This document shows, one piece after another, positions 1,476-38,260 of a stretch of DNA of 38,260 nucleotides (the stretch's first letter is position 1; every line of letters starts with the position of its first letter). The position numbers and the translations under genes are program-made. The stretch lies in assembly GCA_030019255.1 (NCBI GenBank), contig JASEFK010000019.1, positions 1-38,260 of the forward strand, given 5' to 3'. Below the pieces are notes generated by a model that did no database searches, was not told the DNA's origin, and was given only the letters and a program-made list of their open reading frames with translations. The stretch is from Actinomycetota bacterium (GTDB lineage: Bacteria > Actinomycetota > Geothermincolia > Geothermincolales > RBG-13-55-18).

Positions 1476-2552
1476 TCAGAACCGGCCATATCCGGTTACG
1501 TTGATCTTGAAGGCCTGGCGCATGAGCAGGGGTCCGAAGAGGGGCATCAGCCGCATGGCCATGCGCGCCGGGTACTTGATGACCAGGTCCCGGGGGCTTA
1601 TGTCCAACAGCCTCTTGGCCAGGAGCACGGGGTAGAAGGTGATGTTCAGGCGGCGGAACTCGTCGTAGGCCCCCGCCGGGTCCTCCACCGCCCGCGCGGC
1701 AATCTTCCCGGAGAGGAAGGCGCCGTGCATGCCGAAGAAGAGGATGGGATCCATCATCCCGGCCACCGTCCCGGCCAGGATCATGTCTCCCTGGAAAAGC
1801 CTGGGGTTGGTGATGCGCCGCACGGGGGCGGCCCCTCCTTCCAGTAATTGGAATTTCTTAAACGGGTAACCATCCTCCATGACCGCCTGCTCGGCGAACT
1901 TCTCCACCTCCCAGCGGGCCACCGGACGGTGACGGTTGAAGATGAGGGCGAAGGCGATGCCGTTCACCGAACAGGTGAAGGCGTAATCCGGGGTGTAGTC
2001 GTCGAAATACATGGTCACCCGGGCTTCCTTCCAGGGCACCCGGCACTTGGCGAAGTATCCGTGCAGGATCTGGTAGGGAACGTTGGCGGCCTCAAAGCCG
2101 TCCACGTGCAGGCCGGTGGCCACTATGGAATTGCGGGGGAGCTGGTTGATCTGGCGGTCGCTCACCACGGGCTGGTCGAACTCGAAACGCACGCCCTCCT
2201 TCACCGCCAGGCGGTACAGGTAGTGGTCCATGGAAGTCTTGCGGGGGCCTCTCTCGATCATCCAGGCCCGCACGTTGCGAGGGAACTTCTGGCGGTACCT
2301 CTTGCCCCAGATGGATATCACCCCTTCCTCGAGGGGCACCATGGCCGGACGCAGGTCTATTCCCGTATAACAGGACATGGCCTCGGCGTCCATGGGCGTG
2401 CCGTGTGGGGATGGATTGTATATCGCCAGTCCGCCCACCCGCTTCCCCTTCTCCAGGACCACCACCTCCCTGCCCCGGCGGGCCAGGTTGATGGCCGCGG
2501 TCAGCCCCGCGAGCCCTGCCCCCACCACGTATACGGGCCCTCCGTCCTTCAC
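1476..2552 (-). CDS. FAD-dependent oxidoreductase, small paralogue 1
   Basis: Encodes 358 residues from a GTG start preceded by GGGGGTAAGGAGA. The N-terminus is a dinucleotide-binding Rossmann motif, VVGAGLAGLTAAINLARRG, ending in the acidic VVVLEKGKRVGG typical of FAD-binding amine-oxidase, phytoene-desaturase and geranylgeranyl-reductase type flavoproteins. Features shared with three other genes here are ERGPRKTSMDHYLYRLA near residue 100, IVATGL near 145, a Tyr/Asp-rich YFDDYTPDYAF segment, and the C-terminal FAD-contact block GDMILAGTVAGMMDP...GKIAARAVED. At about 360 residues it is shorter than CrtI desaturases (about 490) and lacks their C-terminal substrate lid. It is third in a minus-strand run of three paralogues, with gaps of 17 and about 200 bases between genes. 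Substrate and electron acceptor are unknown. The fold assignment is secure; the reaction is not. Confidence 0.8.
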   Translation of the reverse strand: MKDGGPVYVVGAGLAGLTAAINLARRGREVVVLEKGKRVGGLAIYNPSPHGTPMDAEAMSCYTGIDLRPAMVPLEEGVISIWGKRYRQKFPRNVRAWMIERGPRKTSMDHYLYRLAVKEGVRFEFDQPVVSDRQINQLPRNSIVATGLHVDGFEAANVPYQILHGYFAKCRVPWKEARVTMYFDDYTPDYAFTCSVNGIAFALIFNRHRPVARWEVEKFAEQAVMEDGYPFKKFQLLEGGAAPVRRITNPRLFQGDMILAGTVAGMMDPILFFGMHGAFLSGKIAARAVEDPAGAYDEFRRLNITFYPVLLAKRLLDISPRDLVIKYPARMAMRLMPLFGPLLMRQAFKINVTGYGRF

Positions 2553-2756
2553 TCTCCTTACCCCCTTTCCAACCCCGGATTTCTCTGTTCGGTCAGCCTC
2601 ACCCGGGCAGCGACCGCTCCGCCGGACAAGGTTTTCCGCACCGCGTCCTGCCTGGCGTATCGAGCCGATTCGAGAAAACCTATCGTCAAGTTGGATCCTG
2701 ACTTCTCCACCTCCGCCAGGCCGACGGCGAGTCCCCGGTTGCCCTTGCCCGCCGCC

Positions 2757-3881
2757 TCACATGTCCAGGTACTTCGCGTATTTTTCCATGCGTAAAAGCA
2801 GCAGGTAACCCGGTATCATGCGCTTGAAACTTCTCCCCTGCATCTTTCCCAGGATCTCCCACTTGGTAACAAATCCCAGGGCGGTGTTCAGGAGGGACTC
2901 GCGCAGGAATTCCGGCATGTAGTTGATGGCCACCCGCCGCAGGAACCACATGTAATTGAAGCTTCGGTTGCAGAGGTCGAACATCTCCTGTGCTAGGGCC
3001 TTGTCCTCCAGGGCGATGGCGGCTATCTTTCCCGAGATCATGGCCCCGTGGCATCCGAAGTAAGTGCCCGGGTCCTGGGCTCCCGCCAGGGTCCCGGCCA
3101 GAATCTTGTCCCCGGCGAAGAGGCGCGGCTGGCAGGGATAGCGCGAGGCGAAACAGCCCCGCTCCATCCTCCAGGTCTTGAACTCCACCCCCTCGGTCTC
3201 CCTTATCTGCTTTTCCCACGTCGCCCGCTGTTCCTCCCCCACCGGGCGGCGGGCGAAGAAGAGCCCGGCCACGATGCCGTTGGCGGCCGGTAGATAGCAG
3301 TAATCGCGGGTATAACGGTCGAAGTAAACGGTGCACCGCCGGGCGTACGACCTTTCCCCCCACGGCCGGTAGATCCCGCTCATCACGTACCCGTAGGCCG
3401 TCTCGTAGGGTATACGCAGGGCGTCGAAAACCTCGCGGTAGGGCCCGGTGGCCACGATGGTGTTGGGCGGGAACTGGGCCAGATCCTTCCGGCTGAGCAC
3501 CGGGTTTCCCCATTCGAAAGTCACCCCCATGTCCAGGGCCAGGTCGTGGAGATAGCGGTCGATGGCCGTCTTTCGCGGCCCCCGCTCCACGTTGTGCAGG
3601 CCGGAAAGGGCGGGGTTCAGCCGGTACAGCTTCCCGAAGGAATAGACGTTGAAATTCTCGCACGGACCCACCTGTGGTTCCCCTATGGGCACGCCGAGAA
3701 AGCGGGACATGAGCGCGGGATCGAAGGGGGTAGAATCCACGAAGGGGTGTGCGCCGGGCATGCCGCCCACCCGGTTGTAGCGGTCCACGCAGTGGACCTC
3801 GTAGCCCAGCTTGCGCGCGGTTATGGCCGCGCACAGGCCGGCCAGGCCAGCCCCTATGATGAACACTTTCTTGGTCGTCAT
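2757..3881 (-). CDS. FAD-dependent oxidoreductase, small paralogue 2
   Basis: Encodes 374 residues from the ATG at 3881, immediately after GGAGG with a further G-rich stretch upstream. The frame could be opened further, to 3983, but the extra residues overlap the neighbouring gene and look non-coding. Domain layout matches paralogue 1: FIIGAGLAGLCAAI at the N-terminus, NRVGG near residue 42, VERGPRKTAIDRYLHDLA, TIVATG, CTVYFDRYTRDYCY, and FAGDKILAGTLAGAQDP...GKIAAIALED. It diverges strongly in the middle and has a longer C-terminal tail ending in an alternating basic/hydrophobic stretch (YLLLLRMEKYAKYLDM) that could be amphipathic. It is cotranscribed with paralogue 3 upstream (17-base gap) and probably paralogue 1 downstream. 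Three diverged copies retained in tandem suggest different substrates or a multi-subunit flavoprotein, but this is inference. Confidence 0.8.
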   Translation of the reverse strand: MTTKKVFIIGAGLAGLCAAITARKLGYEVHCVDRYNRVGGMPGAHPFVDSTPFDPALMSRFLGVPIGEPQVGPCENFNVYSFGKLYRLNPALSGLHNVERGPRKTAIDRYLHDLALDMGVTFEWGNPVLSRKDLAQFPPNTIVATGPYREVFDALRIPYETAYGYVMSGIYRPWGERSYARRCTVYFDRYTRDYCYLPAANGIVAGLFFARRPVGEEQRATWEKQIRETEGVEFKTWRMERGCFASRYPCQPRLFAGDKILAGTLAGAQDPGTYFGCHGAMISGKIAAIALEDKALAQEMFDLCNRSFNYMWFLRRVAINYMPEFLRESLLNTALGFVTKWEILGKMQGRSFKRMIPGYLLLLRMEKYAKYLDM

Positions 3882-3898
3882 CCTCCGAACCCCCCTTC

Positions 3899-4960
3899 CT
3901 ATCCCAGCATCCCGAAGCCGGGAACGGATTTCAGCGCTTCGTCTAGGAGCGGGCGGAGCAAGGCTGGGAACCTTAAAAGACAACCGAAGGCAAGGTTCAA
4001 GCCTGGGCGCCGCAAGAAGTGTGGCTGGAGATCAAAGAGCGTCTTGTAAAGCCACATGTAACGGTAACGGGAGGTGAAGCGGCGGAAGAGCCGCCAGGCG
4101 TGCTCCCTGTTCTCCACGGCCATAGCGGCGATCTTTCCCGACACCAGCGAACCGTGCACCCCGAAGAGGAAGAGAGGGTCCTGCACCCCGGCCAGGGTCC
4201 CGGCCAGAATCTTGTCCCCGGCGAAGAGGGCGGGAGCGGAAACGCCCCGGGTGGCCACCACGCCCTTGTGGGGCCGCCACTCCCGGAAGCGGAATCCTTC
4301 CTCCTCCAACCTTTCCGCCCACTCCCGGCAGGCGGAATCCGGTAGAGGCCGAGTGTTGAAGGCCAGGGCGAAGGAGGTGCCGTGGAGGTTGGCGCAATAA
4401 TGGTAATACCTGGTATTTCGGTCGAAATAACCCAGGATACGCGGTTCCCCCTCGCAAGGGGCCACGGCCACGAAACCGAAGACGTCCAGGTAGGGGCGCC
4501 CCAGGGCCAGGAAGGGTTCCGCCTCCAGGCCGGTGGCCACGATGGTGTTTGCCGGAAGGCGTTCGAATTCCTCCCGCGAACCTACGTTCGTCCCGAACTC
4601 GAACTCCACGCCCGCCTCCCGGGCCAGGTCGTAGAGGTAGGTGTCCAGGGACGTGGAACGGCTCCCCCTCTCCACGGAATGCAGGCGGAAATAGTCGCCC
4701 GGAAAGAGGAACTTCTTCCCGTAAACATCCACCAGGAACTCCCGCGTGGGGACCACGAAAGGGGGCCCAAGCTCGATGCCGATGAAACGGCCGAGCTTGC
4801 CCGGCTCCATGGGGGTGACGTCCACCGTTGGCCTAATGCGTGGGTCTCCCCCCACCCTTTCCCTCTTCTCCAAGACCCTGACCCGGTGGCCGGAACGGGC
4901 GCAGTTGATGGCCGCCGTCAGCCCGGCCAGTCCGGCCCCCACCACGGTTACCTCGGCCAA
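3899..4960 (-). CDS. FAD-dependent oxidoreductase, small paralogue 3
   Basis: Encodes about 353 residues if translation starts at the TTG at 4960, which has GGGAGGT nine bases upstream and gives LAEVTVVGAGLAGL, aligning exactly with the start of paralogue 4 (MAEVRIVGAGLAGL). An upstream in-frame GTG at 5029 would add 23 residues but lacks a visible ribosome-binding site. Shared blocks are GAGLAGLTAAINCARSG, RVGG, VERGSRSTSLDTYLYDLA, TIVATGL, YFDRNTRYYHY, ALAFNTRP and FAGDKILAGTLAGVQDP...GKIAAMAVE. The C-terminus ends SVPGFGMLG, similar to TGYGRF and MPGYRNLFP at the ends of paralogues 1 and 4. This is the first gene of the three-paralogue run, about 480 bases downstream of the FAD/Fe-S trio. 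The family is clear; the specific reaction is unknown. Confidence 0.8.
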   Translation of the reverse strand: MAEVTVVGAGLAGLTAAINCARSGHRVRVLEKRERVGGDPRIRPTVDVTPMEPGKLGRFIGIELGPPFVVPTREFLVDVYGKKFLFPGDYFRLHSVERGSRSTSLDTYLYDLAREAGVEFEFGTNVGSREEFERLPANTIVATGLEAEPFLALGRPYLDVFGFVAVAPCEGEPRILGYFDRNTRYYHYCANLHGTSFALAFNTRPLPDSACREWAERLEEEGFRFREWRPHKGVVATRGVSAPALFAGDKILAGTLAGVQDPLFLFGVHGSLVSGKIAAMAVENREHAWRLFRRFTSRYRYMWLYKTLFDLQPHFLRRPGLNLAFGCLLRFPALLRPLLDEALKSVPGFGMLG

Positions 4961-5259
4961 ATCTTCCAACCTCCCGGAGCTGCACGCCTCCGCGGAAGAG
5001 CTTCCCCTGTTTCCCTCCCTTGTCGCCACCCGGATGGAATGGGAGGTCTCCCGGCGATTCTTACCAATCTATTCCAGGAAAGAAAAGCAAAGCACTCGTC
5101 CTTCCACGTGGTTCCCGTCTTCCTGCCCCGTGCTATTTCACCGTCCAGCTATCCCCGCCACACTCTGAGCGCAGGCTTCGAAGCGGCGGCCTTGATCGGT
5201 CATGAAACTTCGTTCCATCCCGGGTTGATCACCACCCTGCAACGGACGGCTGGTGGGTG

Positions 5260-10245: not shown

Positions 10246-11304
10246 ATGGCCGAGGTGAGGATAGTGGGAGCCGGACTGGCGGGGTTGACGGCAGCCGTCA
10301 TCCTGGCCCGTAAAGGACACCGGGTGACCGTCCTGGAGCGGGAGGAGCGCATCGGGGGTTCTCCCCTGTACCACCCCTCCTGCCAGGGGAGCCCCCTCAG
10401 GCTGAAGGAGATGTACGCCTACCTCGGGCTGGACATCTCGCCGGGGGTGGAGCCCATCCGGGAGATGCGGGAGATCGCGGGGGGGAGGGCATACGACTTC
10501 GACCCCCGCCTCATCGGGGCTTGGTTCTTCGAGAGGGGGCCCCGGGAAACCAGCCTGGACAGCCACCTCTACCGCCTGGCCCGGGAGGCGGGGGTGGAGT
10601 TCCGTTTCTCCTCGCCGGTGCTCTCCCCCGAGGACCTCTGGGAATACTACCCTGACTGCATCGTGGCCACCGGACTGCACTTCGAGGGATTCGACGCCTT
10701 CGGGGTGCCTTACCTGACCTCCCATCATTACACCTACCGCGGCACTTGCGATCCGGAGCTCAACTTCGTGCACATGTACCACGACACCTACACCAGCGAC
10801 TACGGGTATGTGGCCGCCTTCCGGGGCATCCTCTACGTGCACCTCTTTAACCGTCGCCGTCCCGTATCCCTGGAAGCACGCGACCGTTTCGCCGCCCAGG
10901 TGGCCCGCTTCGAGGGCTTGCAGGTGCCGCGGTGGAGCAGCTTCACCTTCCCGGTGCCCGCCGCCTCCCCGCGCACCCCGCGCCTGTTCGCCGGGAGGGC
11001 CATACTGGCCGGTACCCTGGCCGGGGCCATGGACCCCTTCGCTTTCTTCGGGCTGCACGGTGCCCTGGTCTCGGGGAAGATCGCCGCCCTGGCCGTGGAG
11101 GACCGGGAGAGGGCGTGGCGGGAGTTCCGCCGCTGCGTGCGTCCCTACTACGCGGCCTACGGGGCGGCGCTCCTTAAGGAACTGGCCCCGGTCTCCCTTA
11201 ACGTGCTCGGGTTCCGGCTCGTCTTCCGCCGTTTCGAGAAACGTAGGCTGGCCCAGAGGATACTGGTGGAGCACATGCCGGGGTACCGGAACCTGTTTCC
11301 ATAA
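10246..11304 (+). CDS. FAD-dependent oxidoreductase, small paralogue 4
   Basis: Encodes 352 residues from an ATG preceded by GGGAGGGAGGATAG. It opens with MAEVRIVGAGLAGLTAAV and VTVLEREERIGG (FAD Rossmann fold) and carries the same blocks as the three minus-strand paralogues: FERGPRETSLDSHLYRLA, CIVATGL, YHDTYTSDYGYVA, YVHLFNRRRP, and PRLFAGRAILAGTLAGAMDP...SGKIAALAVED. It is separated from the others by the FAD/Fe-S trio and transcribed in the opposite direction, probably together with the CrtI-type gene 236 bases downstream. The C-terminus, VEHMPGYRNLFP, is duplicated in that gap. Substrate unknown; relation to the other three is very clear from the shared motifs. Confidence 0.82.
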   Translation: MAEVRIVGAGLAGLTAAVILARKGHRVTVLEREERIGGSPLYHPSCQGSPLRLKEMYAYLGLDISPGVEPIREMREIAGGRAYDFDPRLIGAWFFERGPRETSLDSHLYRLAREAGVEFRFSSPVLSPEDLWEYYPDCIVATGLHFEGFDAFGVPYLTSHHYTYRGTCDPELNFVHMYHDTYTSDYGYVAAFRGILYVHLFNRRRPVSLEARDRFAAQVARFEGLQVPRWSSFTFPVPAASPRTPRLFAGRAILAGTLAGAMDPFAFFGLHGALVSGKIAALAVEDRERAWREFRRCVRPYYAAYGAALLKELAPVSLNVLGFRLVFRRFEKRRLAQRILVEHMPGYRNLFP

Positions 11305-29916: not shown

Positions 29917-30189
29917 TCAGAAGCGGTAGGCGCTCCTGCTCTCCGTATTCCTGGGCTTAGCCTGGTTGACCTTGAGGGTCCTGCCGTCTATCTCCTTGCC
30001 GTTGAGGCCGGATATGGCCGCCCGGGCTTCGTTGTCGTCGGGCATCTCCACGAAGCCGAAGCCGCGCGAGCGGTTGGTGTGGCGGTCCATGACCACCTCC
30101 GCGGATTCCACGGTCCCGAACCTCTCGAAGGCCTTCTGGAGCTCCTCGGAATCCGTCGAGTAACTCAGGTTCCCCACGTATATCTTCAC
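29917..30189 (-). CDS. RRM-domain RNA-binding protein
   Basis: Encodes 90 residues, a single RNA recognition motif with a short tail, as in the cold-inducible Rbp proteins of cyanobacteria and several other bacteria. RNP2 is IYVGNL near the N-terminus and RNP1 is RGFGFVEM (about residues 42-49). The helices and strand between (SEELQKAFERFGTVESAEVVMDRHTNRS) fit the fold closely. The start is a GTG at 30189 with GGAGGTG about seven bases upstream. The gene has its own promoter near 30280-30307 and a terminator in its leader. Likely a single-stranded RNA binder; targets unknown. Confidence 0.93.
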   Translation of the reverse strand: MKIYVGNLSYSTDSEELQKAFERFGTVESAEVVMDRHTNRSRGFGFVEMPDDNEARAAISGLNGKEIDGRTLKVNQAKPRNTESRSAYRF

Positions 30190-30401: not shown

Positions 30402-32924
30402 TCAACTATCAGGTGATCCTTGCGGTTTTCCCGGAATTTCAAAGCTGAATTCAGACCCGACATCCTCGCGATTCGTATGCCAGATCCTCCCTCCATGGGC
30501 TTCGACTATCTTCCGTGCCATATATAACCCGATACCAAGACCCGGTTTGGAATGGTGTATAACATCCTCCACCTGGTAAAAAAGTTCGAATATCCTCTCG
30601 CGATCCTCATCGGGAACGCCAATACCCCGGTCCAAAACGGAAAATCTTACCATCCCCTCTTTCCCTTCCCCCCTCACTTCGACAACCGTGCTGGGAGGGG
30701 AGAATTTGCACGCGTTTTCCAATAGGATGACGAAGAGTTGGGAAATCGCCTCCGGGTCCACGTAGACGTTCTCCAATTCGCCTCTCAAATCAAGAGTGAT
30801 TTCCCTATATTCCTTCATGCGCACCTCCTCGGCTACCCCCTCAACCAGAAGGCGCAGGTCCGTCGGCCTTCTCTTGGCAAGGTAAGTTCCATGTTCGATG
30901 CGAGTTATATCCAGGAGGCTTTCCACAATCCTTGTTAAGCGATTCACGCCGTGTCGAATCCCTTGCAGGGCGTGATCGTAGTCTTCCGCATCAAGTGAGT
31001 GCCTGTTCTTTTCCAGGATCGCGGCATAACCCTTTACCAGGGTCAAGGGATGCCGGAGTTCGTGAGAGGCGATGGCCAAAAAATCCTTCAACTGCTTTGC
31101 CTTTTCCTCTAAAATCCTCTCCCTGTCCTTTTCCCTGGAAATGTCGATCAGGGAAACGATACCGGCCTCACGGCCGGGTAACAAGTTTATCGTGGCAAGT
31201 GTTGGCATGAACTCCCCGCTACAGCGCTTGACCCTGGCTTCGAATTGAATCGGGCCGCTCGTCTCCCCGCGCCATAAACGCGAGGAGTATTCCACGGCTT
31301 TCCCTACATCATCCGGGTGCAGGAAATCCGTGTATTTCGCCTTCTCTACTACCTCTTCGCGCGCCCAACCGAGCATTCTCTCCGCCATCCGGTTGACATC
31401 GGAAACGGTACCGTCGCTCCCTATTATGAACATGGCCGTACCGGTAGTTTCGAATACGGTCCTGTACTTTTGTTCGCTTTCCTGCAAGGCCTTCTCTCGA
31501 CTTTTCCGCTCGGTGATATCCCTCAAGATGCCCACGGCATGCCATTCTCCCCTTCTCTGGAAGGAGCTGACCGAGAGCTCAAAAGGGAAGGTGGCGCCGT
31601 CTCTTCTCCTGCCCTCGAGTTCCAGGGTCTTTCCTATCACGGACCCGCTTCCCGTGGCCCTGAATCGCGAGATACCCTCTCTATAGGAGGCGTGGTACTT
31701 TTTGGGAGCCAGAAGCAAGTGGAGATCCTTTCCCATCATCTCTTCGGCCGTATAGCCGAAGATCTCCTCGGCAGCGGGGTTCCAGTAGCAGACCCTTCCC
31801 TCGCCGTTCAGGATAACGATGGCATCCTTGGCGGAGGAGGCTACGAGATCAAATATCTCCTCCCTCTCCCGAATGGCCTCCTGCATTCCGATACGCTCGG
31901 AGATATCCAATCCGATACCGAACAAGAATTCCAGGGAGCCATCTTCTGAAAGCATGCGCTTGCCGCACCATTCAACGGTTAATTTCCGACCATCCTTGGA
32001 GAGAACTCGATTTATGCTCATCCTCGGGCTTTCGGATACGGATAGAAGCCGCAATTCCTCCGCCACCGCGGCGTGTTCCTCTGGAGGCACGAAGGTACTC
32101 AGATAGTCCCTCCCCTTTACCTCCTCGAGGGTATAACCCAACTTGTGAAGCATGGTTTTGTTTGCAAAGACCGTCCTCCCCTCCCCGTCTATGGCCACAA
32201 AATAGGCGGGCATGGACTGAAGGAGGTCCTGGCTGAACTCCCGTTCCTTGCTCAACTGTTGTTCCAGAACCCTGCTGGATTCCAGGTTGCCGATCATGCG
32301 TTCGAGTATGGTCTCGTGCAAGCCCCGCTCCTGGTACTCCTCCGGTGTGAGGAAGTAACGGTTTTCGTATATCCACCTGTCCGCGGCTACGTACGGATGA
32401 AGCGAGAAAAGGTCCAGGATCAGCCTGGACTCGAATCGCCTTCGGTCATAATGGCAGATGGCGGTACAGGCACTTTCCCGGATATATAAATTAGCCCTTG
32501 CCTCATAATCCACCAGTCTTTCCGGGCCAATGATTTCATACAACATCTTGCTCATTTCCGAGGTGACGAGGACGCCCGAATATCCCTCCCTTAAAGATTG
32601 CCTGGATGCCCTTTGGATAAGGTCGAAAATGCGCTGGGCGTCAAACTCTCCCCCATGCAGGTAGGCTTCCTTGAAATCAAGGAGGTGGAGTTGCCCGATA
32701 TCCAGGGCTTTTTGGGCATCGAATTTTCCGAATCTTTTAAAATAACCTAAGATCTCGCCGGGCGGACAGGAATCGGTTATGCAAAATATTTTCTCGTTTT
32801 TCCTGATTCCTTGTTCCACGAAAAAAAGAAGTCCATCAAGGTATTCCTTGTCCTTCGCATATGCCTGAATTATATGATTTCCTGAACTTATAGCAATGGG
32901 TTTATTAGAAGCCCACCCGTTCAT
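30402..32924 (-). CDS. MEDS-domain PAS sensor histidine kinase
   Basis: Encodes 840 residues, cytoplasmic. Residues 1-190 resemble the MEDS (methanogen/methylotroph DcmR sensory) domain: SGNHIIQAYAKDKEYLDGLLFFVEQGIRKNEKIFCITD and an EMSKMLYEIIG segment. Three PAS domains follow at about 225-345 (FVAIDGEGRTVFANKTML), 350-475 (IVILNGEGRVCYWNPAAEEIFGY) and 480-600 (MFIIGSDGTVSDVNRMAERMLGW). The HisKA block is FLAIASHELRHPLTLVKGYAAIL (H621); the usual H-E-L-R-T-P is H-E-L-R-H-P. The ATPase domain has LLENACKFSPP (N-box), DRGIGVP (G1), and KPGLGIGLYMARKIVEAHGG (G2). No response regulator is adjacent. Start ATG at 32924 with a weak site. Signals sensed and target unknown. Base composition is noticeably more AT-rich than the redox region. 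Confidence 0.88.
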   Translation of the reverse strand: MNGWASNKPIAISSGNHIIQAYAKDKEYLDGLLFFVEQGIRKNEKIFCITDSCPPGEILGYFKRFGKFDAQKALDIGQLHLLDFKEAYLHGGEFDAQRIFDLIQRASRQSLREGYSGVLVTSEMSKMLYEIIGPERLVDYEARANLYIRESACTAICHYDRRRFESRLILDLFSLHPYVAADRWIYENRYFLTPEEYQERGLHETILERMIGNLESSRVLEQQLSKEREFSQDLLQSMPAYFVAIDGEGRTVFANKTMLHKLGYTLEEVKGRDYLSTFVPPEEHAAVAEELRLLSVSESPRMSINRVLSKDGRKLTVEWCGKRMLSEDGSLEFLFGIGLDISERIGMQEAIREREEIFDLVASSAKDAIVILNGEGRVCYWNPAAEEIFGYTAEEMMGKDLHLLLAPKKYHASYREGISRFRATGSGSVIGKTLELEGRRRDGATFPFELSVSSFQRRGEWHAVGILRDITERKSREKALQESEQKYRTVFETTGTAMFIIGSDGTVSDVNRMAERMLGWAREEVVEKAKYTDFLHPDDVGKAVEYSSRLWRGETSGPIQFEARVKRCSGEFMPTLATINLLPGREAGIVSLIDISREKDRERILEEKAKQLKDFLAIASHELRHPLTLVKGYAAILEKNRHSLDAEDYDHALQGIRHGVNRLTRIVESLLDITRIEHGTYLAKRRPTDLRLLVEGVAEEVRMKEYREITLDLRGELENVYVDPEAISQLFVILLENACKFSPPSTVVEVRGEGKEGMVRFSVLDRGIGVPDEDRERIFELFYQVEDVIHHSKPGLGIGLYMARKIVEAHGGRIWHTNREDVGSEFSFEIPGKPQGSPDS

Positions 32925-33039
32925 TCGCTACCGCTGTCTCTTGCATCTCTTCGATTTGATCTTTCACTAATCTACAATCATAAACGCTTTCGGTGTATCG
33001 CGCTTCAAACTTAACAGTGTATTATTTTATCCGATTAGA

Positions 33040-33048
33040 ATTATATCA
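33040..33048 (-). promoter_or_regulatory. Extended -10 box upstream of the MEDS kinase
   Basis: TGATATAAT on the minus strand is a perfect extended -10 (TG-N-TATAAT) about 115 bases before the kinase start, in an AT-rich gap. A -35 at the right spacing is not clear. Confidence 0.4.
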
Positions 33049-33172
33049 GGATGACAAACCAGCAATCCAAGCTCATTACTCGGTGAAAATGGTATCCCAA
33101 TCCTTGTTCTTTCCACAGAGAAACATAAATCCCGTATTGGCTGGTTGTTTCATCCACTGCTGAAAGCAATTC

Positions 33173-33320
33173 AATGATCTAATCTCCGACTACCTGGGCC
33201 ACAGCGATATCTCCAACCGACAAAATCTATCTTCACCTTGCGGACGAGGAATACGACAAGGGGGTGGATACCCTGCCCAAGAGGCTGGGAAGGGGCTCGA
33301 GGTTGATTCAGCTTGTTTAA
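33173..33320 (+). pseudogene. C-terminal remnant of a tyrosine recombinase (integrase)
   Basis: The plus strand reads NDLISDYLGHSDIS from 33173 and, after a single-base frameshift near 33213-33221, continues KIYLHLADEEYDKGVDTLPKRLG to a stop at 33318. LGHSDIS...KIYLH is the hallmark of the last catalytic segment of phage/XerC-type tyrosine recombinases, around the nucleophile tyrosine in K-I-Y. Nothing of the rest of the gene is present. Only this about 45-residue tail remains, with a frameshift, so it is inactive. It marks a past integration event beside the decayed genes that follow. Confidence 0.75.
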
Positions 33321-33390
33321 CAAGGGTTTCCGAGATAACCCCCCCGCCCATAAAACCAATGCATAATAGCCAATTCCCGGCGCCAGATAG

Positions 33391-33826
33391 CTGGACAACC
33401 TGCGGGAAGCCTGGGCCCTCTTCGGTTTCTCAGCCACCGTCACCCGCTTCAACTCCGACCTCCTCACCAGCGAGGAATTCGTCGATTTCTACATGGAGGA
33501 GAAGGGGTGCTTCCTCGGCTGGTACTTCCAGTACATGCACATCGGGACCCGCCCTTCCCTGGACCTCATGACCACCCCCGAGCAGCACATCCAGCGCTGG
33601 GACCGCATCAACCGCACGAGAAGGGAAAGCGACCATCCCTACGTCCTGCGGGAGTGCGTAGCCCTGAGCGCCGCCCGGCTCACCCCCCGAGGCAGAGGGC
33701 ATCCTCACCCAGCTGGCCCCAGACCTCGATCGCTACGGTGAGGAGCAGGGGCGCCTCGCGGACGAGGTGTGGATGGAGCATTACCAGGAGCCGTCCGTGG
33801 ATCTGAGGCAGGGCCGAACGGCTTAA
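33391..33826 (+). pseudogene. Broken radical SAM protein (internal and C-terminal fragments)
   Basis: From 33391 the plus strand reads LDNLREAWALFGFSATVTRFNSDLLTSEEFVDF then GWYFQYMHIGTRPSLDLMTTPEQ, characteristic of the middle of SPASM-type radical SAM proteins (F-G-F-S-A-T-V-T-R, W-Y-F-Q-Y-M, T-P-E-Q). It then jumps to a C-terminal piece, DHPYVLRECVALSAARLTP. A frameshift near 33690 lets the tail PEAEGILTQLAPDLDRYGEEQGRLADEVWMEHY follow, with a stop at 33824. The CxxxCxxC end of the gene, including the N-terminal third, and the cysteine-rich SPASM part are missing; a stop codon precedes 33391. At least one large internal deletion plus one frameshift make it non-functional. I infer family from the motifs only. 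Confidence 0.72.
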
Positions 33827-33837
33827 GGACGGTGCGA

Positions 33838-34722
33838 ATGTCGCTGAACTTCATGCAGCCGGCGGCCGGGCCGCCTATGCTGATGAAAACCGGGTTGGAC
33901 CACTTAGATGAGCACGAATGGATATCGGAAAAATATATCTCCGACGAGCGGATCGAGGCCGGGCTGAAAGCCGTCGCGGAATCCCTAAAGAAATTGTTAT
34001 CCAAAGGAAGAATCGACCAGGAGGATCATGACCGCGCCCTGGCGAATATCACGCCGACCACCTGTTTAGAGGATGCATCGAACGCCGATTTGGTGGTGGA
34101 GGCGGTCTTTGAGGACCTTGAGGTCAAGAGCAAGGTCTTCAGCGAACTGGACGGTATCTGCCCCGCTCGCACCATACTGGCCACCAACACCTCGGCCATC
34201 CCCATCTCCTCCATCGCCGCCGCCACGGAGAGGCCGGACAGGGTGGTGGGCACCCATTTTTTCAGTCCTGTACCCCTCATGCGCCTCTGCGAGATCATCC
34301 GCGGCATCCAGACCTCCGACGAGACGCTCAAGAGGGCAGACGAATGGGCCCGTTCCCTGGGCAAGGAAACGGTGATCGTTCGCAAGGACCATGCCGGCTT
34401 CCTCTCCAACCGCCTCTATCTGCCCATGGTCATGGAGGCCATCAAGACTCTGGAGTCGGGGGTGGCCTCCCCGGAGGACATAGATCGCGCCATGCGCCTG
34501 GGCTACAACCTACCCATGGGGCCCCTGGAGCTCACCGACATGACCGGGGTGGATATCCTGTATAACGCGGGACTGGCCATCTACAGGGACACCGGCGACC
34601 CCAAGTACCTCCCACCCCCTCTCATGCACCGTATGGTTACCGCGAGGCTGCTGGGCAGAAAGACCGGAAAGGGGTTCTACGACTACAGCTCGGGCGAGAA
34701 AAGGAGCTACTGGACAGTTTGA
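33838..34722 (+). CDS. 3-hydroxyacyl-CoA dehydrogenase lacking the N-terminal NAD-binding loop
   Basis: Encodes 294 residues. From residue about 40 it matches 3-hydroxyacyl-CoA dehydrogenases: ERIEAGLKAVAESLKKLLSKGRI, NADLVVEAVFEDLEVKSKVFSELD, ILATNTSAIPISSIA, and RVVGTHFFSPVPLMRLCEII with the catalytic histidine. A complete C-terminal domain follows (FLSNRLYLPMVMEAIKTLESG, NLPMGPLELTDMTGVDI, TGKGFYDYSSG). What precedes it, MSLNFMQPAAGPPMLMKTGLDHLDEHEWISEKYI, is not the usual first strand and G-x-G-x-x-G NAD loop, which is absent. The reading frame begins 11 bases after the radical SAM pseudogene, so a deletion probably fused unrelated DNA to the gene body. Without the loop it is unlikely to bind NAD normally. 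The start (ATG 33838) has only a weak AAGGA site. Could be an inactive pseudogene with an open frame. Confidence 0.7.
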   Translation: MSLNFMQPAAGPPMLMKTGLDHLDEHEWISEKYISDERIEAGLKAVAESLKKLLSKGRIDQEDHDRALANITPTTCLEDASNADLVVEAVFEDLEVKSKVFSELDGICPARTILATNTSAIPISSIAAATERPDRVVGTHFFSPVPLMRLCEIIRGIQTSDETLKRADEWARSLGKETVIVRKDHAGFLSNRLYLPMVMEAIKTLESGVASPEDIDRAMRLGYNLPMGPLELTDMTGVDILYNAGLAIYRDTGDPKYLPPPLMHRMVTARLLGRKTGKGFYDYSSGEKRSYWTV

Positions 34723-34819
34723 AATATCCGACGAAGGGAACCGATGCCGGCGGGTATGGAGGTTTAGCCCGGTGTTTCCGTGGAACGCAAATCCTGACCT
34801 TGGTAAATAGAGGCAGAAA

Positions 34820-35728
34820 ATGGAAAGCAGGGTAATCGAGATAGGAGAGGGCATCCACCTTATCGATTGTTTCTTCGCCGGCATGACCGGCCAATGCGGC
34901 GTCTATCTCCTGCGGGGAGAAAAAACGGCCCTGGTCGAAAGCGGTCCTTCCACGGGAGTGGAACACGTTCTCGCCGGTCTTGCGGAGCTGGGAATAGATG
35001 GAACGGAAATGGACTACGTCCTTCTCACCCACATTCATCTGGACCACGCGGGAGGAGCGGCCTTTCTTCTCCAGTACATGCCCAAGGCTCGGGTTCTGGT
35101 GGACGGGAGAAGCGCGAGATACCTCGTGGAACCCGAGAAGCTGGTGAGGAGCGCCGGCAAGGCGCTGGGGGTTATAGCGCCGCATTACGGCACCATGTAT
35201 CCGGTAAGCGAGGAAAGGATAATCCCCCTGCATGACGGCTTTATGCTGGACTTGGGCGAGGGGATGTCCTTGCAGGCGGTGCATACGCCGGGGCACTCCC
35301 ACGGACATTACGCCTTCTTCGAGCCGCACCGCGCGGACCTTTTCTGCGGCGACGCGCTGGGGCATTTCCTTGGGGAGGACCTCCCTCCCATGCCAGCCAC
35401 GCCCTCACCGGAGTTCGACCCGGAGCTCTCCCTAGCCAGCGCCCGGAGGCTTAGGGAGCTCTCGCCGAAGAAGCTCCTCTTTACCCACTTCGGCTCCACC
35501 TCCCGGACCCGGGAAACGATCGACCTTTTCATGGAGCGGCTGCAGCATCTGGTGCGGGTGGCCGAGAAGTTGCGGGGAATGGAGGACTGGGCAGAGCGCC
35601 TTTCCCAATCCATCTTGGAGGGCCTTTCCTGTTTATCGGGAGAAGAGCTGGAACTTTTATCCGGCATTGCGCGGGTAAACGCCCGGGGAATAATGCACTA
35701 TCTCAATCGTAAATCTACAAATCACTAA
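34820..35728 (+). CDS. MBL-fold metallo-hydrolase
   Basis: Encodes 302 residues of the metallo-beta-lactamase fold, most like the glyoxalase II/RNase Z-type hydrolases. The metal motif H71-x-H73-x-D75-H76 (THIHLDHAGGA) is intact. Further ligands are visible at HTPGHSHGHY, LFCGDALGHF, and LFTHFGS. The C-terminal 80 residues are helical. Start ATG at 34820 with GAGG upstream. It lies 97 bases after the dehydrogenase frame and before a terminator-like hairpin, so it may be the end of the same transcript. No substrate can be inferred; no signal peptide is visible. Confidence 0.87.
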   Translation: MESRVIEIGEGIHLIDCFFAGMTGQCGVYLLRGEKTALVESGPSTGVEHVLAGLAELGIDGTEMDYVLLTHIHLDHAGGAAFLLQYMPKARVLVDGRSARYLVEPEKLVRSAGKALGVIAPHYGTMYPVSEERIIPLHDGFMLDLGEGMSLQAVHTPGHSHGHYAFFEPHRADLFCGDALGHFLGEDLPPMPATPSPEFDPELSLASARRLRELSPKKLLFTHFGSTSRTRETIDLFMERLQHLVRVAEKLRGMEDWAERLSQSILEGLSCLSGEELELLSGIARVNARGIMHYLNRKSTNH

Positions 35729-35753
35729 AGCCCCCGTATGGGTGAACGATATA

Positions 35754-35780
35754 AGCCCGACTGCGGTCGGGCTCGTTTCT
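35754..35780 (+). terminator. Intrinsic terminator after the MBL gene
   Basis: AGCCCGAC pairs perfectly with GTCGGGCT (35754-35761 and 35766-35773) across a TGCG tetraloop, followed by CGTTTCTT. It is 26 bases past the stop codon. The rest of the 365-base gap (35729-36093) holds the aminotransferase promoter and operator; I see no gene in it. Confidence 0.7.
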
Positions 35781-36001
35781 TACTTGCCGGGTTTATGCGC
35801 TTTTGGTCTTACTTCAACTCCGGATGTTTACACAGGTTTATCGATTTTTCCCCGTCGCCGGGATGCACCGCCGCCCTCTACGCACTCATCGTATCATTGC
35901 CCGCTTGGCAGCCTTTCAAAATGTTAACCGGCGATGTTTTTACCTCCAATCTTTCCCGTCACTGGAGCGGAGGTGACGGAACGTAACGGAAGCAATATTA
36001 T

Positions 36002-36038
36002 TATATTGGTTGACTAACCAATATATAAAGTTTATATT
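36002..36038 (+). promoter_or_regulatory. Near-consensus promoter with a perfect 10-4-10 operator palindrome
   Basis: TATATTGGTT-GACT-AACCAATATA (36002-36025) is a perfect inverted repeat with ten pairs in each arm. The -35 box TTGACT (36010-36015) lies inside it and is exactly 17 bases from the -10 TATATT (36033-36038). A repressor bound there would block RNA polymerase. The TetR gene downstream is the obvious candidate. Confidence 0.8.
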
Positions 36039-36093
36039 TTATATATCTATATCCATAACCGTCTCTGTCGGCTTGAAGGAGGTAATGAGAGAT

Positions 36094-37485
36094 ATGGCCC
36101 AAATAACACTGGAAAGAGTGAAGGAACTCGTGCAACGCGAGCAGGAGCGCTACGAAGCGGAGCATCCCAAATCGAAGAAGCTTTTCGAAGAAGCGAAGAA
36201 AAACTTGGTGGGCGGCGTCCCCATGTCCTGGATGCGCATCTGGGTGGGTGGTTTCCCCATCTTCGTGGAAAAGGCGGAGGGCGTGCACATAACCGACGTG
36301 GACGGCCATACTTACCTTGATTTATGCCTGGGAGATACCGGCGGTTTGTGCGGCCACGCGCATCCCAAGATCGTGGAGGCGATCTACGAACAGATAAAGA
36401 CCCGGGGCACCACCACCATGCTCCCCACCGAGGACTGCATATGGGTGGGGCAGGAGCTGGAACGTCGTTTCAAGTTGCCTTGTTGGCAGGTTCTAATGAC
36501 CGCATCCGACGCCAATCGCATGGCCTTGAAGGTGGCCCGCGAGTATACGGGCCGCCGACTTATCCTCGCTTTCAACGGCACCTATCACGGTTCTGTCGAC
36601 GAGACTCTCTGCGTGAATATCATGGGTCACCTGATCAACGTGCCGGGGTTGATGGGCCCCATCGTCCCCGATCCGTCGGTGATGACCCGCATGATAGAGT
36701 TCAACGACGTGGACGCCCTGGAGAAGGCCCTTGCCCCCCGGGACATCGCTTGCGTGATCACCGAGCCGGTGATGACCAACGTGGGCATCATCAAGCCGGA
36801 GCCGGGATTCCACGAGGCCCTGAGGGAACTGACCCGCAAGCACGGAACCTTGCTGCTCATCGACGAAACTCACTCCATGTGCGCGGGACCCCGGGGCGTG
36901 ACTGGTGAGATGGATCTGGATCCTGATATCTTTGTGGTAGGTAAGTTCATCGCCGGCGGTTATCCCGCCGCTGCCCTTGGCTTCAGTAGGGAGATCAGCG
37001 ATTGGATGGCCGCACGTCGACCCTGGCATGTCTTCTTCGGCTTCGGGGGGACTCTTTCCGGCAACGCCACCGCCGTAGCCGCTATGCGAGCCGCATTGGA
37101 ACACGTCCTCAACGAGGAGAACTTCGCGCGCATGATCGCCTTGGCCGAGCGAATGGAGGACGGTTTGGCAGCGATCATCAAGGAATACGGGCTGGACTGG
37201 TATGTGGCTCGCATCGGGTGTCGGGTGGAGTTCCGCTTCCTGCCCAAACCTCCCAAGAATGGGTCGGAGGCGCTGTTCGCGGAGGTGCCCTATAATGCGG
37301 TAGACCCTATAAACGAGGGCTTGACCGGACCATTGGAGGCGTTGATCCATCTCTATTGCGCCAACCGGGGTATCCTGCTCACCCCCGTACACGAGATGGC
37401 CCTGGTAGGACCGACTACCACCGAAGAGGAGGTAGACAAGTACGTGAACACCATCAGGGACCTGGTCAAAGAGCTGGTTCAATGA
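36094..37485 (+). CDS. Class III PLP aminotransferase (glutamate-1-semialdehyde aminomutase-like)
   Basis: Encodes 463 residues. An ATG at 36094 is preferred for its GGAGGT about 10 bases upstream; one at 36085 is closer. Residues around 40-100 have GIFVEKAEGVHITDVDGHTYLDLCLGDTGGLCGHAHP in the usual class III layout. LMTASDANRMALKVAREYTGRR replaces the usual S-E-A-x-x-x-A-L-K-x-A-R block, and GTYHG follows. The PLP-proximal LLLIDETHSMCAGPRG carries the conserved Asp, and DIFVVGKFIAGGYPAAALGF gives K284 for the Schiff base. Length and motifs match glutamate-1-semialdehyde mutase and related transaminases, but no haem gene is nearby, so an amine catabolism role is equally possible. It lies under the operator-controlled promoter and 132 bases before the TetR gene. 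Confidence 0.88.
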   Translation: MAQITLERVKELVQREQERYEAEHPKSKKLFEEAKKNLVGGVPMSWMRIWVGGFPIFVEKAEGVHITDVDGHTYLDLCLGDTGGLCGHAHPKIVEAIYEQIKTRGTTTMLPTEDCIWVGQELERRFKLPCWQVLMTASDANRMALKVAREYTGRRLILAFNGTYHGSVDETLCVNIMGHLINVPGLMGPIVPDPSVMTRMIEFNDVDALEKALAPRDIACVITEPVMTNVGIIKPEPGFHEALRELTRKHGTLLLIDETHSMCAGPRGVTGEMDLDPDIFVVGKFIAGGYPAAALGFSREISDWMAARRPWHVFFGFGGTLSGNATAVAAMRAALEHVLNEENFARMIALAERMEDGLAAIIKEYGLDWYVARIGCRVEFRFLPKPPKNGSEALFAEVPYNAVDPINEGLTGPLEALIHLYCANRGILLTPVHEMALVGPTTTEEEVDKYVNTIRDLVKELVQ

Positions 37486-37617
37486 GCAAGTGCCCCTTAA
37501 TGTACAGAGCGTCTTTTGGGCGTCATCGTCCCCACATGTGGTAAACTTCTTCTATCTTTTCGCATTCGTCCTGCGCGTCGCCCATACGCGAGTGTCGTGG
37601 TTTCATCGGAGGTAGGA

Positions 37618-38208
37618 GTGGGGAGGAAGCCGCTAAAAGATCAGCGTCGCAAGGAAATTCTGGAGGCTCTTTACCGATGTTTGCTGGAAAAATCATACAG
37701 CGAAACGTCCATCAAGGACATTGGCAGGAAGGCCGGTCTTAATCCTGCTATGCTGCACTATTATTTCGAGAGCAAGGAGGATATCCTGATCAATCTCGTC
37801 GACAGCATATACGAGGAGCACCGTCGTGCCTTCGAGAAACGTCTTCGCGAGCTGCAGGAAATGGGGCTGGAGGCTCGAGGGCTGGTTCGAGAAATTTTAC
37901 GCTATTTCAACGAAAACGTTACCTGTGATAAAAAGCTCCAGAAGGTTTTCTTCGAGATCTGGGAGGTAGCCTTACATAACCGCAACGTCAGCGAGCGGGT
38001 GAAGAGGATCTACCGCGAGTGGATAGACGGACTCTCGCGGATCTTTAATGAAACGATCGGCCCGTGTCCCGATGCCGACAATCTCGCCCTGGCAGCAGTG
38101 GCCTTCCAGGAGGGAGTGGGCATCTTTTCCGTGTTCTTCCGCTTCCGACGCGACTATACCCGGGCGCTTCTGGAGGGGTTCCAGGAAAGAATACTGGAGA
38201 TGCTTTAG
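37618..38208 (+). CDS. TetR/AcrR-family transcriptional regulator
   Basis: Encodes 196 residues from a GTG at 37618 with GGAGGTAGGA directly upstream; an earlier ATG at 37516 would add 34 residues that do not resemble a TetR start. The N-terminal helix-turn-helix is canonical: RRKEILEALYRCLLEKSYSETSIKDIGRKAGLNPAMLHYYFESKEDIL. The remaining two-thirds is an all-helical ligand-binding and dimerisation domain (FNENVTCDKKLQKVFFEIWEVALHNRNVSERVKRIYREWIDGLSRIF). It follows the aminotransferase gene on the same strand, probably on one transcript, and the palindrome upstream of that gene is the likely operator, giving autoregulation. The ligand is unknown. Confidence 0.92.
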   Translation: MGRKPLKDQRRKEILEALYRCLLEKSYSETSIKDIGRKAGLNPAMLHYYFESKEDILINLVDSIYEEHRRAFEKRLRELQEMGLEARGLVREILRYFNENVTCDKKLQKVFFEIWEVALHNRNVSERVKRIYREWIDGLSRIFNETIGPCPDADNLALAAVAFQEGVGIFSVFFRFRRDYTRALLEGFQERILEML

Positions 38209-38260
38209 CTCATCTTCTACAGTTGCATTTCCAAAATACCAGGTAGATGGGCATTTTTGG

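Follow-up and report, generated by a model that had tools for sequence, protein, structure and literature searches.

Positions 33181–34722 of the window (the entire contig C19, 38,260 nucleotides, from a genome of 2.93 Mb in 43 contigs with an estimated completeness of 98.8%) hold four gene wrecks in series, head to tail and all on the plus strand (Table 1). They are best explained, with a probability that we put at about three in four, by an integration hotspot at which insertion of an IS, followed by deletions, left the fragments in place. The zone is a cluster of dead gene fragments (pseudogenes), of a well-known kind and a product of ordinary genome decay; intact counterparts of the radical SAM gene (contig C7) and of the dehydrogenase (contig C2) are present in the same genome. 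A preliminary description of this DNA had recognized three fragments; those three are retained here, but the count rises to four with an IS1634-family end (33319–33387) that had been overlooked.

The wrecks are bounded on both sides by intact genes, which start again at 34820 with the hydrolase, followed by the aminotransferase and the TetR regulator. To the left, the spacer between the histidine kinase and the wrecks (32925–33180) is A+T-rich (39% G+C vs 61% for the window) and has no match elsewhere in the genome; no RNA families were matched in 32000–38260. Further away in the window, four similar reading frames, three of them consecutive (1476–5029 and 10246–11304), resemble small FAD-dependent oxidoreductases (GAGLAGLTAA-type starts).

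Table 1. Features of the decayed zone and its neighbors, with positions in the window.
Feature	Coordinates	Strand	Evidence
RBP, a conserved gene resembling those of RNA-binding proteins; anchors the variable site on the left	29917..30189	-	Gene comparison with relatives
MEDS-PAS histidine kinase, intact, left neighbor of the wrecks	30402..32924	-	Pfam MEDS, PAS, HisKA, HATPase_c
Probable C-terminal tail of a tyrosine integrase, frameshifted	33181..33318	+	Two-frame translation, sub-cut-off Pfam match, weak database matches
IS1634-family insertion sequence, left terminal end	33319..33387	+	Matches in G006, G010, G011; shuffle test
Radical SAM gene copy, codons 226–305 of the intact gene	33392..33629	+	Alignment with own C7 copy
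Radical SAM gene copy, codon 386 to its own stop, frameshifted	33630..33826	+	Alignment with own C7 copy; translation
Stretch of unknown origin	33827..33936	.	Without match in own genome or Pfam
3-hydroxybutyryl-CoA dehydrogenase body without first 33 residues	33937..34722	+	Pfam; relatives' N-termini
Metallo-beta-lactamase-fold hydrolase, intact, right neighbor	34820..35728	+	Pfam; ortholog comparison
Aminotransferase and TetR regulator, both intact	36010..38208	+	Domain profiles; comparison with relatives

The leftmost wreck (33181–33318) is probably the frameshifted C-terminus of a tyrosine integrase: with two frames joined near 33215, its peptide resembles the last ~46 residues of such an enzyme. 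With the Pfam Phage_integrase profile this peptide scores 14.5 bits (E 0.031), short of the 27.1 bits that the profile requires; tblastn searches of phages and plasmids reached about E 0.3 at best, with a recombinase or integrase annotation in 6/10 and 7/10, respectively, of the matches listed (151 and 41 records at E up to 10). Of the frameshifted integrase tail originally described, the frameshifted, tail-like peptide thus stands, but at this score the integrase identity is weakly supported. A XerC/D-like gene beside the intact C7 radical SAM gene was considered as the source of the tail and rejected, a DNA search with 32925–33400 having given only a 15-base chance match in C7. The stop codon of the tail (33318–33320) shares its last base with the first base of the IS end, an overlap which suggests that insertion of the IS may have cut the integrase gene.

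Only ~68 bases of the left end of the IS1634-family element remain in the window, with 13/15 bases of the left terminal repeat kept; neither the transposase nor the right terminal repeat or end was found there. The remaining end is ~75% identical to ends in G006 (where the match lies upstream of a transposase) and G011 (where it lies at the point at which the contig stops), and a complete related IS in G010 spans 1957 bases with perfect 15-base terminal repeats and encodes a transposase of 588 aa that passes the IS1634 family model (305 bits vs a cut-off of 100). Alignment scores of the window end with these three copies (55, 57 and 37 for G006, G011 and G010) lie above the maxima of 1000 shuffles per copy (24, 26 and 22, in the same order). 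The end is matched in 4/59 genomes, our own counted among them, and has no second copy in its own genome; a 23-base pattern taken from it is absent from viral_contigs. Four filler bases separate the IS end from the radical SAM fragment.

Alignment with intact homologues, as the preliminary description had proposed, mapped the deletion points of the two remaining genes, using the C7 gene for the radical SAM copy and relatives for the dehydrogenase. The reference for the former is an intact radical SAM/SPASM gene of 450 aa, in which the Radical_SAM domain lies at 105–232 (with the CxxxCxxC motif at 111–118) and SPASM at 322–376. The first block of the fragment is identical to codons 226–305 of this gene at 216/238 bases, and 33630–33792 to codons 386–440 at 150/165 alignment columns, with one 2-base deletion that shifts the frame; between the two blocks precisely 240 bases, or 80 codons without a change of frame, are missing. 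The internal deletion and frameshift reported earlier are confirmed. Both iron–sulphur parts have been lost, the CxxxCxxC motif because it precedes codon 226, where the fragment begins, and the SPASM domain because it falls within the deleted codons 306–385.

Over 401 shared columns the fragment is 91% identical to the C7 copy, with which it groups in a FastTree phylogeny (support 0.969); it either arose by copying after the species had split from those genus mates that were sampled, or was acquired from a very near relative. The two differ at 5, 6 and 24 sites at codon positions 1, 2 and 3, compared with 7, 2 and 38 between the intact C7 gene and that of G003, and the excess of second-position changes in the fragment fits relaxed constraint during part of its history. 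Within the fragment, ~100 bases (33440–33535) are identical to the C7 copy and the ends are more different; gene conversion between the two around this stretch is possible.

These alignments also bear on whether an assembly error fused unrelated pieces, as might be suspected of a draft genome in 43 contigs when the fragments belong to several different families. We regard this as most improbable: the window contains no ambiguous N letters, the IS end lacks a second copy in the genome, and the radical SAM fragment differs by 9% from its single counterpart there and so does not stem from misplaced reads of that counterpart.

In the last wreck, homology to 3-hydroxybutyryl-CoA dehydrogenase begins at 33937; full-length relatives carry about 33 residues before this point, ending in MHD and including the NAD-binding loop GSGLMG. 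Pfam 3HCDH_N (PF02737) is matched only from profile position 30 and NCBIfam NF004474 from position 34 to its end (302 bits, below the cut-off of 408), and Pfam 3HCDH (PF00725) is complete (positions 1–97/97, E 1.6e-31). The Rossmann GxGxxG loop is absent from the N-terminus of the remnant; a profile search upstream of 33937 for the missing part gave no match, and the 110 unrelated bases that stand in its place (33827–33936) match nothing in the genome itself or in Pfam. Replacement of the start by unrelated sequence, as first described, is thus borne out together with the loss of the NAD loop, but the missing part amounts to about 33 residues rather than ~40. We also considered the new 33-residue N-terminus as an inversion of the old one and rejected this, the reverse-complement profile score being 14.2 vs a genomic null of 13.7 (SD 2.7).

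The remaining body (261 aa) is free of stops and frameshifts. At positions that are invariant in 17 relatives it is changed in 8/134, similar to the divergent full-length relatives L017 (6/140), L022 (7/141) and L023 (14/148), the other 14 relatives showing 0–2 changes; its differences from L017 at the three codon positions are 0.199, 0.130 and 0.475. A near-intact body with this codon-position pattern points to long constraint and a recent break, such that the gene would have been constrained for most of its history. The same body could be read as that of a living gene, made from a new start and functioning without need of the NAD loop, particularly as an in-frame ATG at 33838, preceded by an AAGGA stretch, gives a product of 294 aa, as long as the intact form (33 + 261), and as the motifs that we take to be those of the catalytic Ser, His, Glu and Asn are all present. 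We consider this very unlikely, given that the NAD loop is gone, that the new 33 residues match nothing, that a recent break accounts for the intact body equally well and that paralogs in the same genome (C2 and C6) carry the loop. It is barely credible that a 294-aa product with this unrelated N-terminus has taken on an NAD-independent role, e.g., in CoA-ester binding or in mixed oligomers with an intact paralog. The relatives have full-length versions, rather than sharing the short genes under selection.

The sequence is suggestive only of the old start codon having been kept at 33918. Scored there with a start profile built on 13 of the 17 relatives (the other four were left out or did not align in register at the start), the sequence gives a value reached by 182/2500 shuffles, and by 2/2500 under a post hoc condition that the match also fall on the start codon and the junction; with a profile from all 17 relatives the observed score is reached by 31/300 shuffles and by 86/297 random stretches of the window. 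As for the origin of the gene, the intact C2 paralog has 76% DNA identity to the remnant, which is no closer to it than to other members of the family. In neither tree does the remnant fall within the main cluster formed by the family's own copies, and its placement is uncertain; the nucleotide tree joins it to L017 (0.911) and the protein tree gives another grouping (0.792), and because the two disagree we name no donor. A close ortholog elsewhere was sought and rejected, the best hit of a genome_contigs scan having 55% identity, with family and order relatives nearer (65–76% protein identity).

Comparison of the locus in relatives places the wrecks at a site of variable content. Conservation extends over the left flank, with its calcineurin-like, methyltransferase-like and RBP genes: the methyltransferase was found in 13/14 family genomes, and the RBP gene lies beside the same genes, at 76–91% protein identity, in five of the family loci fetched besides the window (the genus mates G001, G002 and G003, and G007 and G011 of another genus in the same family). 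To the right of the RBP gene, the gene order differs in every genus member examined (G001, G002 and G003), and the histidine kinase has a counterpart in the same place only in G002, diverged at 59% identity. A tRNA-Val gene lies close by in 2/3 genus mates (G001 and G002); the distance from the RBP gene to it is 766 bases in G001, 5263 in G002, 2322 in G007 and 8244 in G011, with differing contents, those of G002 before the tRNA being the histidine kinase and an HpaB-type hydroxylase (Pfam). In G003 (L150, C16) the RBP gene is followed by a region that matches contig C2 of the genome under study at 227–233 kb (91% DNA identity); this is a rearrangement, not a simple insertion, and one of its ends lies at this hotspot. 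No tRNA was found in the stretch fetched to the right of the RBP gene there.

In the genome under study, tRNA-Val and the block after it are located on contig C6, from 5704 onward. An integrase remnant there scores 33.9 bits with Phage_integrase, above the cut-off of 27.1, and ends about 120 bases before tRNA-Val. C6 1–5778 (L163) runs from the interior of an IS1634-family transposase through a histidine kinase region (with N runs and a long run of lysine codons) to the integrase remnant and tRNA-Val; it is likely because C6 begins within such a transposase that the contig breaks at this point. C19 and C6 are unjoined in the assembly, and we infer that C19 leads toward C6. No stretch of the window is a convincing match to the tRNA-Val end (an att direct repeat), which leaves the left limit of the island undefined; the other att end may be on a different contig that is not linked to this one.

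The right-hand neighbors add to this variability, in that the hydrolase and the aminotransferase have no orthologs in the three genus mates; the aminotransferase and TetR regulator stay together as a pair in G008 and G005. Neighbors missing from the genus mates, at a variable site, might also be expected had the fragments come pre-broken as one block of mobile-element DNA, with no decay in place. Such an origin is unlikely: the gene most closely related to the radical SAM fragment is in its own genome, and the dehydrogenase body is little decayed. This combination indicates that the two breaks differ in age or history; some parts may still have arrived broken.

Decay in place at an integration hotspot, our preferred reading, suggests the following history. 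Foreign DNA would have entered repeatedly between the RBP and tRNA-Val genes, leaving the integrase remnants, and an IS1634-family element would have inserted at 33319/33320, beside or within the integrase gene. The transposase would then have been lost, together with the front half of the radical SAM copy, in a deletion that began ~68 bases within the IS and reached codon 226 of that copy; separate deletions of 240 bases and 2 bases would have completed the ruin of the copy, and a further deletion would have taken the NAD-binding loop of the adjoining dehydrogenase. In total, one hotspot would have taken several insertions and no fewer than four deletions. The earlier suggestion of insertion followed by deletions at one spot agrees with an IS end joined to the interior of a radical SAM gene, two further gene deletions to its right and a variable site, the order of events being what we infer. 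In the review PMC9330008, adjacent deletions are described as starting precisely at one element terminus, and an IS excision enhancer as promoting, among other outcomes, partial IS deletion. The deletion here begins ~68 bases inside the IS and not at its terminus, and we therefore call it a partial deletion involving the IS, with transposase action unproven; the element may have been active in the deletions rather than merely hit by them. Against the hotspot reading stand the weak match of the integrase tail, the rearrangement in G003, the lack of a tRNA-Val end in the window and the unjoined state of C19 and C6.

The locus is a readable record of one chromosomal site hit by integration, IS insertion and deletions in this lineage. 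For annotators it holds a caution, in that the listed reading frame of 317 aa (33769–34722), a "dehydrogenase", is a truncated remnant. The finding is real but ordinary, and leaves general understanding unchanged.

Each component can be set beside an intact system. The IS end shares with IS1634-family elements the left end and its terminal repeat (13/15), and differs from them by the missing transposase and right end. The radical SAM fragment departs from the C7 radical SAM/SPASM gene in lacking codons 1–225 and 306–385 and in being frameshifted, and the dehydrogenase remnant lacks the first 33 residues with the NAD loop but keeps the C-terminal domain of the 3-hydroxybutyryl-CoA dehydrogenase family. 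The site as a whole differs from tRNA-associated genomic islands in that no flanking repeat was found, its left limit is undefined and it is split over two contigs; it resembles them in the variable content beside tRNA-Val in relatives and in the integrase remnant by the tRNA on C6.
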